From Dysidea avara (lineage: Eukaryota > Porifera > Demospongiae > Dictyoceratida > Dysideidae): 64,000 nucleotides of DNA. Location of the stretch: the NCBI RefSeq assembly GCF_963678975.1, contig NC_089281.1, positions 23,106,765 through 23,170,764 on the forward strand, read 5' to 3'. This document shows, one piece after another, positions 35,541 to 47,839 of the stretch (its first letter is position 1; each line of letters opens with the position of its first letter). Under the pieces are notes generated by a model, which was given only the letters and a program-made list of their open reading frames with translations, ran no database searches and was not told the DNA's origin. The translations under genes were made by a program, and so were the position numbers.

Positions 35541-36402
35541 CCTAGCTCATGCATTTTACTACATTAAGTGGTTTATGTGGTGACAATTTCCGTGATGTCA
35601 TTAGGAGATTCATACTCAAATTTATGGCACTTTGGATATTGTGCTTGGTGCCATGTTAATTACAGAAAAGCCCTAAAAATGTCGTACACAAAAATCACCG
35701 CTCTGCTGACTTCTTTTGCTTATATCTTTTGGTAGGAGCCACCAATTGAGGTGCGGTTTGCACTAAAATGATTCTAATAGATAGCACAATATATGCCATT
35801 CCAAAGAATTTAAGAAATATAAAATTTTTAATTTGGTTGGAAATCTACTTTTAAAACCAGAACACCGAGCAGAACACTCTTTAATTTTTGTATCACACAT
35901 GCTACAGCCATACTAAGTGTGTACTGCTCTTCAATTCATGAGCTTGAGTAGCTAGCTAACCGGCAGACAAAACAATGGCTGAAATGGCCAGGGGGACAGA
36001 ATCAAGAAGTCTACATATGTACCGATCCCTTCTTTCCTTGCTAAACCTGAGTACAATAATTATGAAAAACGTCTTACAAACAAGCCTTCGAAAGTAACTA
36101 AGTACAGAGGTAAGTTACTTTTAACATAGCTATATCCATGCTTTTAACAAAGCAAGTTAAATCATGTTAAATGTAATAACTACCCTAACTCTGGCAACAT
36201 ATTATCCGCGACCCGTAAAAGGATACACCTGGCCATCACTCACTTGTACAAGCAACCTCAGTCATTGGCCTCGCCACTGGCAGAACACCGTACTTTCCAA
36301 GGTACCCACCGCACTGAAACGTCCGGTTAAAAGTATCACGTGCGCAATATACTCAAATCATGGTGTATTGATTAAATTTTATAAAATTACTACTACTACT
36401 AC
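35541..36402. other. No gene recognised
   Basis: Lies between two inverted-repeat elements. The frame at 36164-36415 is unsupported. Confidence 0.35.
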
Positions 36403-36702
36403 CAAGAGTACATAATAATAGAGTAGGGAGGAGAGTGTCTAACTTCACAAACTCACTGCGCTCAGACCTTGCGCAATCAACTATAGCCACCAAAGGTGAC
36501 AAATGGCTTGCTCTATGAAGGAGGTTGTAGCACTTCTACTGCTCAATTAGGAAATATCAACAGTCTTCTGTTCACTTAAAGGTATTGATTTATTACTAGA
36601 AGTTTTATGGATTGAAGTAGGAGGGTTTGAGCGCAGTGTGTTTGTATGGAGTATATTGAGAGTTAGACACTCTCCTCCCTCTTCTATTATTATGTACTCT
36701 TG
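36403..36702. mobile_element. 300-bp MITE abutting the pseudohexokinase stop codon
   Basis: The ends CAAGAGTACATAATAATAGA and their inverse begin about 40-bp arms including GGAGGAGAGTGTCTAACT, with a second inner inverted pair (CACTGCGCTCA and TGAGCGCAGTG). It ends 6 bp before the minus-strand stop codon at 36709, so it forms the start of that gene's 3' untranslated region. Confidence 0.88.
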
Positions 36703-36708
36703 CTACTA

Positions 36709-38285
36709 CTATATAAAAGACAAGATAGCTCCACCATATAACATCCCACGAGACATGACATTATCCTTGTACTTAATTTCCAGTTTAGTATCTATGAAAA
36801 CAAATAAATTAATTACAGAATTGATAATCGTAATGAGCATACCTGGTAGCAGAGACTGGACAGATGACTGAACTAATTCCAACCACAAATACATCGTTGA
36901 CGAACCCACCACTCCTACAGTGAAGTCTTGAAGCTTAGCCTACATATAGACCACAATATTTGCTTGTGTAATTACTGTAACATTTAACATGTTAAGTGAC
37001 TATTTGAAACAAAAGTAATTCTGAATTCACCTCTCTTACAAGCGCAGCAATCCCTACTGCCATTAGTTTGGCTGCCCTGCAGTAGACAGCAGAAGTTGCT
37101 TCACCTAATACAACTAAATCTTCTTTGTTCACTTCAACTGACATTTGTTCCAGTAAATGCCCCACAGCTTCACATTTAACAACATACCTAGAACCAGTTG
37201 GTCCATTAAAATGGAGTTAATTTTACACACTTACTTATTCCCAGTAAAGCACTCCCTGTTACTAGCAATGCCATTTAATAAGGATATAAAAGTGTCCTTG
37301 TCTAAGGTGGGAGGTAGTTTTCCATTGAACAGTTTTCCTTCGGCAATTTTGCTAATACAAACTCGCCACAATATGTCTGATAAGTAGACGTCAGAAACAA
37401 CCTTCTCAAATCTGTGTAAGATTAATTATTAAACTGTTGCTTTCTCAAGTGAGTAGACTCACAATTTTCTCCCCTTGTTATTGCTGTCAGCATCAACAGC
37501 AAAGTCAATATCAGCAAGGTACTCATCCAGGCTCCTGTTCTGTTCTCCAATTGTAGCCCAGTTGGTAACAACAGCTACTTCACTAGGCTGGCTTGTGTTC
37601 ATACGAGTCAGTTTGTCTGCACTACTTCTGTAGCAAGCGTTACTGGCATAAGACGCAAGGGAAACTACGACATCACAATTATGGTATTTCATTCCATAAA
37701 CTAGACCGGCCATACATTCAGGAACCACCTTCACTGGCAATGTAAAGCCCTAAGTCACATGCAGTGTAGTAATGAACAAAACAGCACTTAACAAACCTGA
37801 ACTTCTATTGGAGCCTTCAGCAGCTCAATAATATCAGCATTACTGTCTCCTTCAATTGTCCAGTTGGTAAGACACTTTGAAGTTAGTTTACCATCTTCTG
37901 GAGTGAAGCTATGGACTAACACTACAGAGCAGTTACGAGTTATGTTTGCTGCCCCCACTGCAAGCTGATATAGCCGAGCTATCAATGAGTCTAGTGTGGT
38001 CACATCTGAAGATAGCAGTGCAATGCCATCTTGAAGCTGTACGTCAAATTTCCCACCACAAGTGGCAACTCGATAACCAAATACACCAGCGTCAGTCCAG
38101 TATAGGACAACAGACTCTTTGTCAGAGATATGACTATCAGTAACAGTGGGTAGAGGAGCAATATCAACTTTTATTGGACTAGCATGGGACTCTTTGGATA
38201 AGCTCTCAATAAGATCAGTTTGTAGTTTCCCTGTCAAGTTCTCTAAATCATCAGCAGACATCTCAAACTGGTCTAATGGATTGAG
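36709..38285 (-). CDS. Hexokinase-like domain without catalytic residues (pseudohexokinase), C-terminal half of an NMNAT fusion
   Basis: Six minus-strand exons (37797-38285, 37463-37749, 37235-37411, 37031-37187, 36843-36939, 36709-36791) join in phase at GT/AG sites to 429 codons plus stop, close to the size of a hexokinase domain. Alignment from memory of glucokinase/hexokinase landmarks is collinear: FEMSADDLENL...LSKESH; LTNWTIEGDSNADIIELLK for the NWTKGF...G.VVxLL block; YASNACY for GTGSNACY; NWATIGEQNRSLDEY for EWGAFGD..LDE; KLFEKVVSDVYLSDI for QLFEKMVSGMYLGE; FTVGVVGS for ITVGVDGS. But phosphate loop DLGGTNFR is replaced by WTDAGVFGYR. Catalytic NDT is PEC, glucose-binding NxEW is VTNW, and the adenine loop GSGKGAAL is VMSRGMLYGGAI. 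Homology starts at the exon edge, before any Met, implying an upstream exon. The first Met (38261) is an alternative start. Confidence 0.82.
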
Positions 38286-38415
38286 CTATATGATAGGAAA
38301 GAACACTTACAACACATAGTGAAAGGCTTACTTAAGGAATACAGCACAGGTACAAACCAAATGCCAAGTAAATTTTCTATTTACATGAATGCAGCACAGA
38401 ATTTATTGCACTTAC
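38286..38415 (-). other. 130-bp intron joining NMNAT to the pseudohexokinase
   Basis: Starts GTAAGTGC and ends TTTCCTATCATATAG on the minus strand. Size and signals match the other introns of this unit (50-150 bp). Both flanking exons are phase 0, so splicing keeps one frame of 650 codons. No room is evident for a separate promoter and 5' exon. Confidence 0.75.
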
Positions 38416-39520
38416 TGAATACAGAGTAGGATTGCTTTTGATGTAGTCCACAACTGGGTCTGGGACTAGATACTTTATGCTCTGCCCCCTAGCCAGTGAC
38501 CGCCTGCAGAATGCGAACACCTCAGTACCTACCTACTACAGCCATGAGCAAAAGTCTGACTCTTGCCATAGGTTTTAACAACTACGATGTACAGTAATGC
38601 TCAAGTCTTACTCACCTAATCTTTGTGGAGCTCACTGCATTAGCAATCCATTCTGTTACAATTTCAATGTTGTTCTATCCAGTAAAAAAAATGCATTATC
38701 CTACAGTATGTTTGTAATGTATGCTTAACCTGGTGTCGTAGTAGGATGGGTGACTTGTAAATGAACCTTTGTGGGTTGTAGCCAATTCTACTGATCACCA
38801 CAAGACCAAATCGACCAACTATTTCATCAATCTACACACAAGCACTAGTGCTAATGCACTGCAAGACCTGTGTACACTTACATACATCTTCCTCTTTCCA
38901 TAGGTTAGGTACACTAAACGACTCTAACAAATCTGCTCCACACAGGAAACGAACATTGACATCCTCCCAGCCAGCTAGGAAGAGACATACAGTATTATTG
39001 TGATCAAGTAGTCACACAAAGGAAAAATCGTGCACATATACCTTTAGCAGTGACCTCTTCTTGAAAGTGTCGTAAAACTTTCACTGTAGTAGACCACTCT
39101 GACTGACGTATCTCCCAATCTGATACACTTCATTAGCCAATAGTAGCAATAAAACTAATAATCAAGCTCATGCATACCTGAGCCAATCAGATGACTGGGT
39201 AGCAAGTCGGCACATAGTCAAACGATGTTCTCCAGGTACCAAACCCTGGAACGTTAAAATCTTCCCCACAGTTTTACCATAACAATTTTACTCACCTTTT
39301 TACCATATGCGTCATGAGTTGGTGATACAATACCAGCCACTACTGTGAAGTGTCCACTTCTCTGCAGAAAGTCTCTTGACAATTCTGTTAGTGTATTATA
39401 ATGAGCTACTGCACATTATGAAATATATATATACACACCAAACAACCTCAGGTGAAGGTTGGTGATCGGACTGAAACACCCACACAATGCTAACACAATC
39501 CTATTCCTCTGGTGAGACAT
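38416..39520 (-). CDS. NMNAT: Nicotinamide/nicotinate mononucleotide adenylyltransferase (NMNAT), N-terminal half of a fusion
   Basis: Joins NMN or NaMN to ATP-derived AMP to make NAD(+)/NaAD, the last common step of NAD synthesis. Eight minus-strand exons (39439-39520, 39296-39384, 39178-39245, 39042-39127, 38886-38974, 38730-38831, 38616-38674, 38416-38503) sum to 663 nt, 221 codons, with all phases consistent. Landmarks: [14 protein letters not shown] (nucleotidyltransferase G-x-F-x-P-x-T-x-x-H box), [28 protein letters not shown], and [20 protein letters not shown] (the SxTxxR motif). Catalytic residues are intact. The last exon ends at a GTAAGT donor in phase 0 after NPTLYS; the next in-phase acceptor (TATATAG at 38286-38292) opens the hexokinase-like exons. 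If that intron is retained, the protein ends 12 codons later at 38377-38379. Start ATG is at 39520. Confidence 0.93.
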
Positions 39521-39594: not shown

Positions 39595-40122
39595 TTATTC
39601 AATCACCACACAGCTCCTTCTGGATTGGGAACGTTTTAATTCAAGCCCTTTGATTATGATGGCAGAAAGTGCCTTAGAGTACGTTACTGTAATGCCACGA
39701 TCCCCAGTTGTACATACATTCATTGGAGCCACTGAAAGTAAAATGTGAACATCTTCACCCAATGGTATGAAACCAGGCACCTTCTAATAAGGAATTTTCA
39801 GAGTTTATGAATTGTGTGTAATCATAATCATGTGTGAAGCCAGTTCGGAGAGATGAAACTGATACAGTAAGATCGAAGGAATGCCAAAGATTTGGGAAAC
39901 ACCGCAATGCTATAGATATGATGCTACGGAAAGCATAATACAGTCAATACTGTACTAAAAGCTCATGCTAATAACAAGGTATACTACCTATTACAACAGG
40001 GAGCTCACTTGTATAGGTACAACAACAGTTGGGCTTTTCTTTCTGCTATGTTTGGTTATCCTCCCAATGCGGGATTTACTGTGAGGTCCCTTTCCCTTTT
40101 TCTGCCGCTTCTTCCCTGCCAT
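39595..40122 (-). CDS. Small basic two-exon protein of unknown function
   Basis: Exons 40009-40122 and 39595-39783 (GTGAGC donor, TTATTAG acceptor, phase 0) encode 100 residues. The N-terminus (MAGKKRQKKGKGPHSKSRIG) is strongly basic, like a nuclear or nucleolar targeting sequence. The second exon (VPGFIPLGEDVHILLSVAPM, then ITVTYSKALSAIIIKGLELK) looks like a small beta-rich fold. I do not recognise the family. The stop codon is only 74 bp before the NMNAT start on the same strand, unusually tight for animal genes. A 5' leader and head-to-head arrangement with the plus gene at 40606 suggest that the unit's promoter lies in 40123-40605. Confidence 0.6.
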
Positions 40123-41284: not shown

Positions 41285-43159
41285 TTATCTTCTTGATGTC
41301 TTTCCAGATTTTCTTTTACCAGCAAACAAATGCTTTGGCATCTTGGTAGGGATCTTTCTGTCAGCTTCTCCTTTACGGCTGTATCTTGCAATTGGTCTTT
41401 GGGCGATCTTCATTTTCTTTCGAGCTTTGGCAACTTGAGATTCATCTCTTAATCCACTCTTGTCTCGAGGTCTTGACATTGATTGTGAACCATGTTGAGA
41501 AACTTGTGATCTAGTTCTTTTCCTGTCTTTTGGTAAAACAGCAACGTCCATATCCATAGCTTCGGCATCTTGAGCAGCAGTAGACTTAGTTCTTTCTTGC
41601 GATTTTCTACGCTCAAGTGATCGAGCTGTAGTACGTGCAACTCCTGGCCTATTTCCAGATTTTCTGCCGCGTGATTCAATACGTAACAACTGCTTTTTTG
41701 CTCGTATCTTTTTAGCAGTAGAACGCATGGCAAGGATTTCTGGATCTTCCTCATCAGAGTCATATGTACCAGTTGCTTCAAGGAGCTGCTCCTCTTTCTC
41801 AAGCTCATCAAGTTTCTGCAAAATGTCCGGGTCAATAAAATCTGCTATATTGTGCCCATCAAGTATTTCTGGAATTCTGTCATGCTTCTCTTCCGGATTC
41901 TCCAACAAGTATTTCTTCCTCATATCCAAAACGTAGTCATCACCTTCTTCCAACTCAAGATCTCTTTCCGTTTTCTTTTTCACAGCTGTAGGATCATTAG
42001 CAATTCTTTTGGTTCTAGCCCCTTCAGGAATGTGTGGTGGTCGTTTGGACTCATCTGTTTCACTGGGTACAGCCAAGTGGATACGACTGATCAGGTCAGT
42101 GGCATTTTTACCTTTCAACTTAGCCTCTACTCGTTGTACAAGTAATGCGTCACAAGTGGTTGTCTTCACTACAGAAACACCTTCTTCTGTAATAGTGCTC
42201 ATAGGAAGAATGGTGATCCCTTGTGCCTCAAACTGAGTCAATTCATCTTTAATTGACTGGTCTAGTTCCTCTGGTCTGATGATGTCTATCTTGTTGAGAA
42301 TAATGAAGGTAGGCTTGTTGGAAAATAATGGCTTGATGCTGTCAAAAAGTGACAGCTGGTCTTCTAAAGAGTGGCCACATTGCTGTGACACATCCATGAT
42401 AAAAAGAACAGCAGCTCTCAGGTGAGCTAGAGCAGTGATTGCCTGCATCTCAATGGTGTTTCTATTCTCCAACGCATGGTCTAAAATCCCAGGAGTGTCA
42501 ACAACCTGCCAGCGCATGTAACGATAGTCCATGTGTCCAACAAACAATGACTTTGTGGTGAAAGCATAAGGCTGTACTTCTACGTCAGCTCTTGTTACTT
42601 TATTCATGAAACTAGACTTACCAACATTAGGAAAGCCACACACCAGAAGTGTACGAGTGTTGGGATCAATTGATGGCAACCGAGACAAGTGCTGCCTGAC
42701 TTGCTCCAGGTACTGAAGACTTTGGTTTTGTCGTTTCATTATTGTACACATTCTCCCCAATGCTGCACGTTTCAACTGCTTACACCGATAAAGCGAGTCG
42801 GCAAACTTCATCAGACGGACGTAGTCCTTTGATACATTATCAATCAGATTCTTGGCTGTATTTATCTGTCCCAGAGCAAGCTTGTAGTGATCCCTATCAT
42901 ACAACACGTTCATGAGGTCGGCATAAAACGGGTGGACGTCGTCAAGCTTGGGAAACTCTGTCACTATCATTGACAAACGATCGTGAAAGTTCTGCTGAGT
43001 AAACTTTATCTTGCGCGTGTAGAATGACCTGATCCGCGATATCTTGTACTGTTTATGGATCACTGTGGGTGTTTTCCTCTGTGTCTTCGAAAGAGTGATA
43101 TCTATCAAGTCCTTTCCACTTGGAACGACAGTAATCTTTTTAAAGTTATAGTGAGCCAT
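41285..43159 (-). CDS. GTPBP4: Nucleolar GTP-binding protein 1
   Basis: Single 624-codon exon for NOG1/GTPBP4, the GTPase needed for late nucleolar 60S subunit maturation. The start [20 protein letters not shown] at 43159 matches the conserved animal N-terminus; an in-frame extension to 43294 has no ATG and is rejected. The N-terminal helical domain ([20 protein letters not shown]) leads to the Obg-type GTPase domain: G1 [10 protein letters not shown] (about residue 170), G2 region [11 protein letters not shown]3 DTPGILDH and G4 NKIDI (about 300). A basic NOGCT-like tail ends in RKSGKTSRR. Length is near the animal norm (about 634). All nucleotide-binding residues are intact. It is head-to-head with DHX15. 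Confidence 0.98.
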
Positions 43160-43305
43160 TTCTTGCACTAAATTCAAACAACCTGTACTCTTAATACTAA
43201 CACAACCTTTCTTCGGACGTCCCCCAGACCCTTCGCCACGTGGTGTAATATTCTGATCACGTGAGTTAGTTACTGGAGGCGGATTGCGGGGCAACAGTAG
43301 CAGAA
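43160..43305. promoter_or_regulatory. Bidirectional promoter between NOG1 and DHX15
   Basis: 146 bp separate the two start codons, and both products act in ribosome biogenesis or RNP remodelling. It contains ATCACGTGAG (a CACGTG E-box at about 43257). This is only a sequence match, but E-boxes of this type bind Myc-family factors that drive ribosome-biogenesis genes in animals. Confidence 0.55.

Positions 43306-47839
<4,534 letters not shown>

Follow-up and report, generated by a model that had tools for sequence, protein, structure and literature searches.

NMNAT makes NAD, and hexokinase opens glycolysis. In the sponge Dysidea avara, exons of both kinds follow one another on the minus strand of a 64,000-nucleotide window (the whole stretch of DNA that was analyzed), and the question is whether they encode two proteins or one. 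A first-pass annotation of this DNA had predicted a fusion of an active NMNAT to a catalytically dead hexokinase domain. The reading that we favor, with a probability of roughly two in three, is a single fusion gene in which a competent NMNAT would carry a C-terminal pseudo-hexokinase, acquired through a duplicated hexokinase gene that lacked its first exon.

An independent rebuild of the locus gave one frame of 650 codons plus a stop, assembled from 14 exons between 39520 and 36709 on the minus strand (Table 1). The first 221 residues are an animal-type NMNAT, and the following 429 are hexokinase-like. Exons 1 to 8 sum to 663 nt, or 221 codons, and exons 9 to 14 to 1290 nt with the stop codon counted. 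Every one of the 13 introns is bounded by GT and AG, and the phases close throughout; the eight plus six exons, the junctions, the closing phases and the exon sums of the first-pass annotation were all exact. The introns are short, with 12 of the 13 measuring 47 to 112 bp, and the longest, at 130 bp, is intron 8, which separates the two parts. The rebuilt frame agrees letter for letter, at 100% identity over 650/650 residues, with an NCBI model named "hexokinase-2-like isoform X2 [Dysidea avara]" (P0001), and it is therefore not an arbitrary assembly; P0001 amounts to another, separate prediction of this splicing, made from the same genome. Numbered isoforms in annotation of the NCBI type are usually backed by transcript evidence.

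Table 1. Parts of the joined gene and its product, with positions counted in the window
Feature	Position	Strand	Remarks
NMNAT exon 1	39439..39520	-	start ATG at 39520; GxFxPxTxxH-type motif; identical to P0001
NMNAT exon 2	39296..39384	-	
NMNAT exon 3	39178..39245	-	
NMNAT exon 4	39042..39127	-	
NMNAT exon 5	38886..38974	-	
NMNAT exon 6	38730..38831	-	
NMNAT exon 7	38616..38674	-	SSTKIR motif, last codon shared with exon 8
NMNAT exon 8	38416..38503	-	phase-0 end at donor GTAAGT
Intron 8	38286..38415	-	130 bp; retention stop codon 38379-38377
AATAAA poly(A)-signal-like hexamer within intron 8	38402..38407	-	
Hexokinase-like exon 9	37797..38285	-	counterpart of canonical hexokinase exon 2; Met codon at 38261
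Hexokinase-like exon 10	37463..37749	-	
Hexokinase-like exon 11	37235..37411	-	
Hexokinase-like exon 12	37031..37187	-	
Hexokinase-like exon 13	36843..36939	-	
Hexokinase-like exon 14	36709..36791	-	stop TAG 36711-36709; P0004 terminates at similar point
Fused protein, junction peptide			reads ...NPTLYSLNPLDQF...

The surroundings of the gene were also inspected. Upstream, at 39595-40122, a small two-exon-like frame on the minus strand, joined by eye (MAGKKRQKKGKG... then ...SCVVIE), ends about 74 bp before the NMNAT ATG and has no Pfam match at E 0.1. Further out, at 41285-43369, a stop-to-stop frame of 694 amino acids on the minus strand resembles, by eye, a nucleolar GTPase of the NOG1/GTPBP4 type. 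Downstream lies a MITE-like inverted repeat (36394-36711) with 51-nt arms, 90% complementary and 216 nt apart, one end of which overlaps the stop codon of the hexokinase-like part. The body of this repeat holds the sole AATAAA or ATTAAA of the minus strand within 36708-36000 (at 36594), and the transcript may thus take its 3' end from this element.

Exon 8 ends in phase 0 at 38416, before a GTAAGT donor, and exon 9 starts in phase 0 at 38285, behind an ATATAG acceptor that ends at 38286. Donor, 130-bp spacing and acceptor were all reproduced as first described, as was the consequence of intron retention, a stop after 12 further codons (the read-through is VSAINSVLHSCK and then the stop). The AATAAA in intron 8 is the sole AATAAA or ATTAAA across the 13 introns, although a chance occurrence is possible: with the minus strand of the window divided into 492 adjacent 130-bp pieces, 43 of them contain AATAAA. 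Because intron 8 holds both an in-frame stop and the only intronic AATAAA, a free NMNAT form of 233 residues, produced by retention or by ending within the intron, is plausible. The statement that the hexokinase homology opens before any Met is true at the exon start, but codon 9 of exon 9 is itself a Met and a possible alternative start. A separate 5' exon for the hexokinase-like part, which the first-pass annotation had named as evidence that would speak against a fusion, was sought in 39600-38286. The search returned three weak pairs of an ATG and a donor (GTGTGG, GTGTGT and GTAGGT), all lying over NMNAT exons or introns and none convincing.

The NMNAT half matched PF01467 in a profile search with an E value of 2e-17 and human NMNAT1 with an E value of 7e-78. 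The hallmarks of animal-type NMNATs are the GxFxPxTxxH and SSTKIR motifs, and both were found in the translation, in keeping with the first report that the NMNAT motifs are kept. In an alignment with 85 NMNATs, 35 columns reach a conservation of at least 95%, and the D. avara protein matched at 35/35 of them; the 85 are hits of the D. avara protein itself, taken from 139 proteins by length (195 to 330 residues) after removal of 14 named entries. In the predicted structure, Foldseek matched this half to human NMNAT1 (1kku) with an E value of 1.1e-24 and a target TM of 0.95, and the block pLDDT was at least 85 across residues 1 to 220, save for two blocks at 70 and 80. Judged from sequence and model, the NMNAT half should be a catalytically competent, active enzyme. 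A search of the genome for other NMNAT loci with the 650-residue query gave 11 matches, all at this locus, with a sensitivity that is limited, as the same search missed the canonical hexokinase. A PF01467 scan of the genome, which passed over the short NMNAT exons of the locus itself, hit two places outside it, and these look like choline-phosphate cytidylyltransferase and CoA synthase.

The hexokinase-like half is homologous to hexokinases across both lobes. It matched PF03727 above the cut-off (E value of 1e-25), the match of its N-half to PF00349 was weak (15 bits, below the cut-off of 24.3), and its best solved relative was human hexokinase 2 (HK2), with an E value of 1.3e-38 and the chain aligned over residues 4 to 386. 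The catalytic Asp of hexokinase sits in a VNDT motif; in D. avara this position is a Cys in the alignment with HK2 and a gap in the alignment with the canonical D. avara hexokinase. Relative to that canonical protein, DLGGSNFR has become DAGVFGYR, with the Asp, first Gly and Arg kept, CEWGAFG has become TNWATIG, with Asn in place of its Glu, and GTGTNACY has become ASASNACY at the aligned columns, in which SNACY keeps the Asn of NACY. Of WTKGF, WT is present and K-G-F is missing, the Ser of FSFP is kept, and the Glu of YEK is kept as LFEK. The first-pass annotation had described all hexokinase active-site motifs as changed. This holds for the catalytic Asp and several ligand residues, which are lost, but it goes slightly too far, since NACY retains its Asn, YEK its Glu, WTKGF its Thr, and DLGGSNFR its Asp, first Gly and Arg. 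Its description of an otherwise intact 429-residue frame was borne out, with neither a stop nor a frameshift in 1290 nt and with intact splice sites. By its sequence, then, this part is a pseudo-hexokinase, in which some ligand binding may still be possible.

A structure was also predicted for the joined 650-residue protein. Its pLDDT was 69.8 with a deeper alignment, against 53.8 before, and the C-terminal part was low. Foldseek listed hexokinases for the hexokinase-like part (best E value of 3.4e-13), and among the 50 matches listed none had a TM above 0.42 or an rmsd below 22, with the C-terminal pLDDT low. The first-pass annotation had suggested a regulatory or scaffold domain, perhaps one that senses sugar or ATP or that targets NMNAT. 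Sensing of sugar or ATP is made less likely, though still conceivable, by the loss of several phosphate and glucose residues. Hexokinases carry an N-terminal mitochondrial helix, and targeting through this helix appears unlikely, since the first hexokinase exon, where it would be expected, is absent.

The origin of the hexokinase-like part was addressed by comparison with the only other hexokinase detected in a PF03727 scan of the whole 550.8-Mb assembly, in which the window occupies C10:23106765-23170764. The two loci share a chromosome and are about 2.35 Mb apart. A rebuild of exons 2 to 6 of this second hexokinase gave E values of 2.6e-70 and 1.1e-66 for the two hexokinase families; both the label canonical and the intron comparison rest on these exons. 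A scan for an ATG-donor type of first exon produced four candidates, none confirmed, and the last exon was absent from the stretch fetched. Both canonical exon 2, which begins EEALKQF, and exon 9 of the joined gene, which begins LNPLDQF, are entered in phase 0, and the two starts coincide in the alignment. The five donors that follow are in phases 0, 2, 2, 0 and 1 in both genes (5/5). Three of the five fall in the identical column; the first is one column off, the canonical exon-2 donor having been picked by us from two candidate GTs that are two codons from each other. The last, compared by residue count outside the alignment, lies 28 versus 26 residues past a shared TV motif. This agreement of the entry acceptor and the introns with the canonical hexokinase, in phase throughout and nearly always in position, is new in this analysis. 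Because of it, the hexokinase-like part most likely descends from an intron-bearing hexokinase gene and is missing the first exon. The NMNAT exons occupy the place of that missing exon and match its phase, a match that on its own would be expected by chance about 1 time in 3. Use of the old exon-2 acceptor would account for a homology that, as first remarked, opens in mid-helix.

Protein searches identified seven sequences besides P0001 that carry the hexokinase-like domain. Six of them (P0038, P0039, P0040, P0100, P0106 and P0111) are genomic-looking frames that contain the exon-9 homologue only, with 76 to 83% identity to exon 9 in three and 42 to 46% in the three others. The four frames that reach upstream of the exon (P0038, P0039, P0106 and P0111) have ILQ or VLQ directly before it and unlike residues further up; the recurring LQ is consistent with a phase-0 CAG acceptor that has been read through. 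The codon-9 Met is common to the three closest relatives only. It is absent in P0100, P0106, P0111 and P0004, where the next Met occurs 34 to 85 residues in, the first letter of P0004 being set aside. An in-frame M, not conserved, opens the P0038, P0106 and P0111 frames within the unlike upstream residues, and an unspliced start at this M is possible.

The seventh relative, P0004, is an intron-free frame of 417 residues on a contig of 1881 bases, which is for this reason probably a transcript, and it presents the domain without an NMNAT. It is 49% identical to the D. avara domain over 427 alignment columns, which speaks against decay of the domain. In its first motif the Asp and the Arg, which D. 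avara keeps, are lost as well, and the Thr of WT is a Lys. As in D. avara, K-G-F is absent, CEWGAFG has an Asn in place of its Glu, NACY keeps its Asn and YEK its Glu. At the catalytic Asp the alignment shows a gap, preceded in the adjacent column by an Asp, and whether the residue is lost thus hinges on how the sequences are aligned. The initial M of P0004 may be a GTG written as M, for 31/31 proteins listed from the same source start with M, and P0100, P0106 and P0111 have Val at that place. The P0004 frame starts at the domain rather than in an NMNAT, which counts against a fusion there, unless intron 8 was retained or the contig ends at that point. No relatives with flanking DNA were found in the viral contig and genome contig collections searched.

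The full-length query, with scoring confined to the 7996 candidates that had the most words in common with it, gave 36 other hits of 358 to 1138 residues, and a junction query gave 109; neither set contains a second protein joining NMNAT to hexokinase. The first-pass annotation had known of no such fusion, and the protein searches agree with it. Likewise, text searches of the open-licence papers in PubMed Central listed none that, by title or abstract opening, dealt with an NMNAT-hexokinase fusion. The predicted 650-residue protein is already public, named for its hexokinase half only; what would be new is the combination of two well-known families, NMNAT and hexokinase-like, in one protein. 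Other domain pairings appeared in the same searches. Three environmental sequences (P0027, P0028 and P0030) combine an NMNAT domain with a flavoprotein domain (PF02441), and two Bactrocera dorsalis proteins (P0002 and P0003) have PF01467 with PF23989. By eye, P0002 contains two tandem NMNAT copies.

The most direct alternative to a fusion is that two separate genes lie 130 bp apart on one strand, with the NMNAT ending at the stop and poly(A) signal of intron 8 and the hexokinase-like protein starting at Met 38261 or in an unseen exon, so that the joined model would be a merge made in annotation. Sponge genes can be closely spaced, and tandem genes are therefore plausible. The in-frame stop 12 codons into intron 8, with AATAAA at 38407, the codon-9 Met that three close relatives also have, the in-frame M that P0038, P0106 and P0111 have ahead of the exon, and the solitary P0004 without NMNAT all fit this arrangement. 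However, exon 9 begins exactly at the canonical exon-2 start, behind an acceptor, which calls for an upstream exon, and 39600-38286 offers no convincing one; the codon-9 Met is missing in P0100, P0106, P0111 and P0004 (where the initial M may be GTG); and the donor is a consensus GTAAGT of matching phase. Taken together, we consider two separate genes unlikely, though still a serious contender. A joined transcript might also exist at a low level as a read-through chimera whose fused protein has no role, the working products being free NMNAT and perhaps a separate hexokinase-like protein. The intronic stop and AATAAA would permit free NMNAT, and the 36 other and 109 hits include no fusion from another source, but the frame of the hexokinase-like part is unbroken and relatives conserve it, yet the more distant ones have no conserved start of their own, which makes such a chimera improbable.

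The remaining alternatives concern the hexokinase-like part itself. If it still bound glucose or a phosphosugar, the NMNAT would be sugar-responsive. A plant hexokinase mutant without catalytic activity is reported to sense glucose still (PMC8256278). Such a role would also suit the residues that remain: D. avara and P0004 both retain the Asn in NACY and the Glu in YEK, and in D. avara the Ser of FSFP, the Thr of WTKGF and three residues of DLGGSNFR (Asp, first Gly and Arg) persist as well. Against these stand the missing K-G-F and the Glu of CEWGAFG changed to Asn in both proteins, the catalytic Asp that is a Cys or a gap in D. avara, and kept residues that differ between D. avara and P0004, and we regard sugar responsiveness as quite improbable. 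A dying pseudogene, in frame by accident, would explain the lost active-site residues; this was disfavored as highly improbable, since 1290 nt run without a stop or frameshift between intact splice sites and since the domain or its first exon is kept in seven relatives, six of them at 76 to 83% or 42 to 46% exon identity.

The single fusion gene would then have come about when a duplicated hexokinase gene without its first exon came to lie directly behind an NMNAT gene, so that the phase-0 donor of NMNAT exon 8 could splice to the old hexokinase exon-2 acceptor, also in phase 0. Each pre-mRNA would face a choice: removal of intron 8 would yield the fusion, and an end at the intronic AATAAA, or retention of the intron with its stop codon, would yield the free NMNAT of 233 residues. 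The hexokinase-like domain would no longer phosphorylate sugar and would instead give the NAD-making enzyme a module for binding or placement. Vertebrate NMNATs have isoform-specific tails at the C-terminal position, and this is the position that the hexokinase-like domain would take. It is quite probable that the fused transcript is real; that the fused protein is functional seems somewhat better than an even bet. A broader scenario is offered tentatively, as one that may well prove wrong: the pseudo-hexokinase arose by duplication in a sponge group, lost its first exon and, in all members of the group, has since formed the C-terminal domain of NMNAT. NAD synthesis would thereby be coupled to a noncatalytic hexokinase fold, and alternative ending in intron 8 would determine how much of the enzyme is free and how much is fused.

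If the fusion is real, it would be a new domain combination that links NAD synthesis to the fold of a glycolytic enzyme, and a case of pseudoenzyme capture, in which a gene copy without its first exon adopts the exons of the gene upstream. One report (PMC10823734) describes NMNAT2 and glycolysis as functionally linked in neurons. A natural fusion partner would make coupling between NMNAT and glycolysis testable in an animal without neurons.

Among known systems, the closest to the N-terminal half are animal NMNAT1 and NMNAT3, with which the D. avara protein has in common the whole catalytic domain, the motifs and the predicted fold; they carry a short tail, whereas the D. avara protein carries a 429-residue hexokinase-like domain. 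Animal hexokinase and glucokinase (PF00349 plus PF03727) are homologous to the other half over most of its length, but in the D. avara part the catalytic Asp is gone, as are several residues for substrate and phosphate and the first exon, and the PF00349 match of its N-half is weak. Bacterial fusions of the NadR and Nudix types join an NMNAT to active enzymes of the NAD pathway. They share with D. avara the pairing of NMNAT with a second domain; their partners are active NAD-pathway enzymes, whereas that in D. avara is an apparently inactive copy of a hexokinase.
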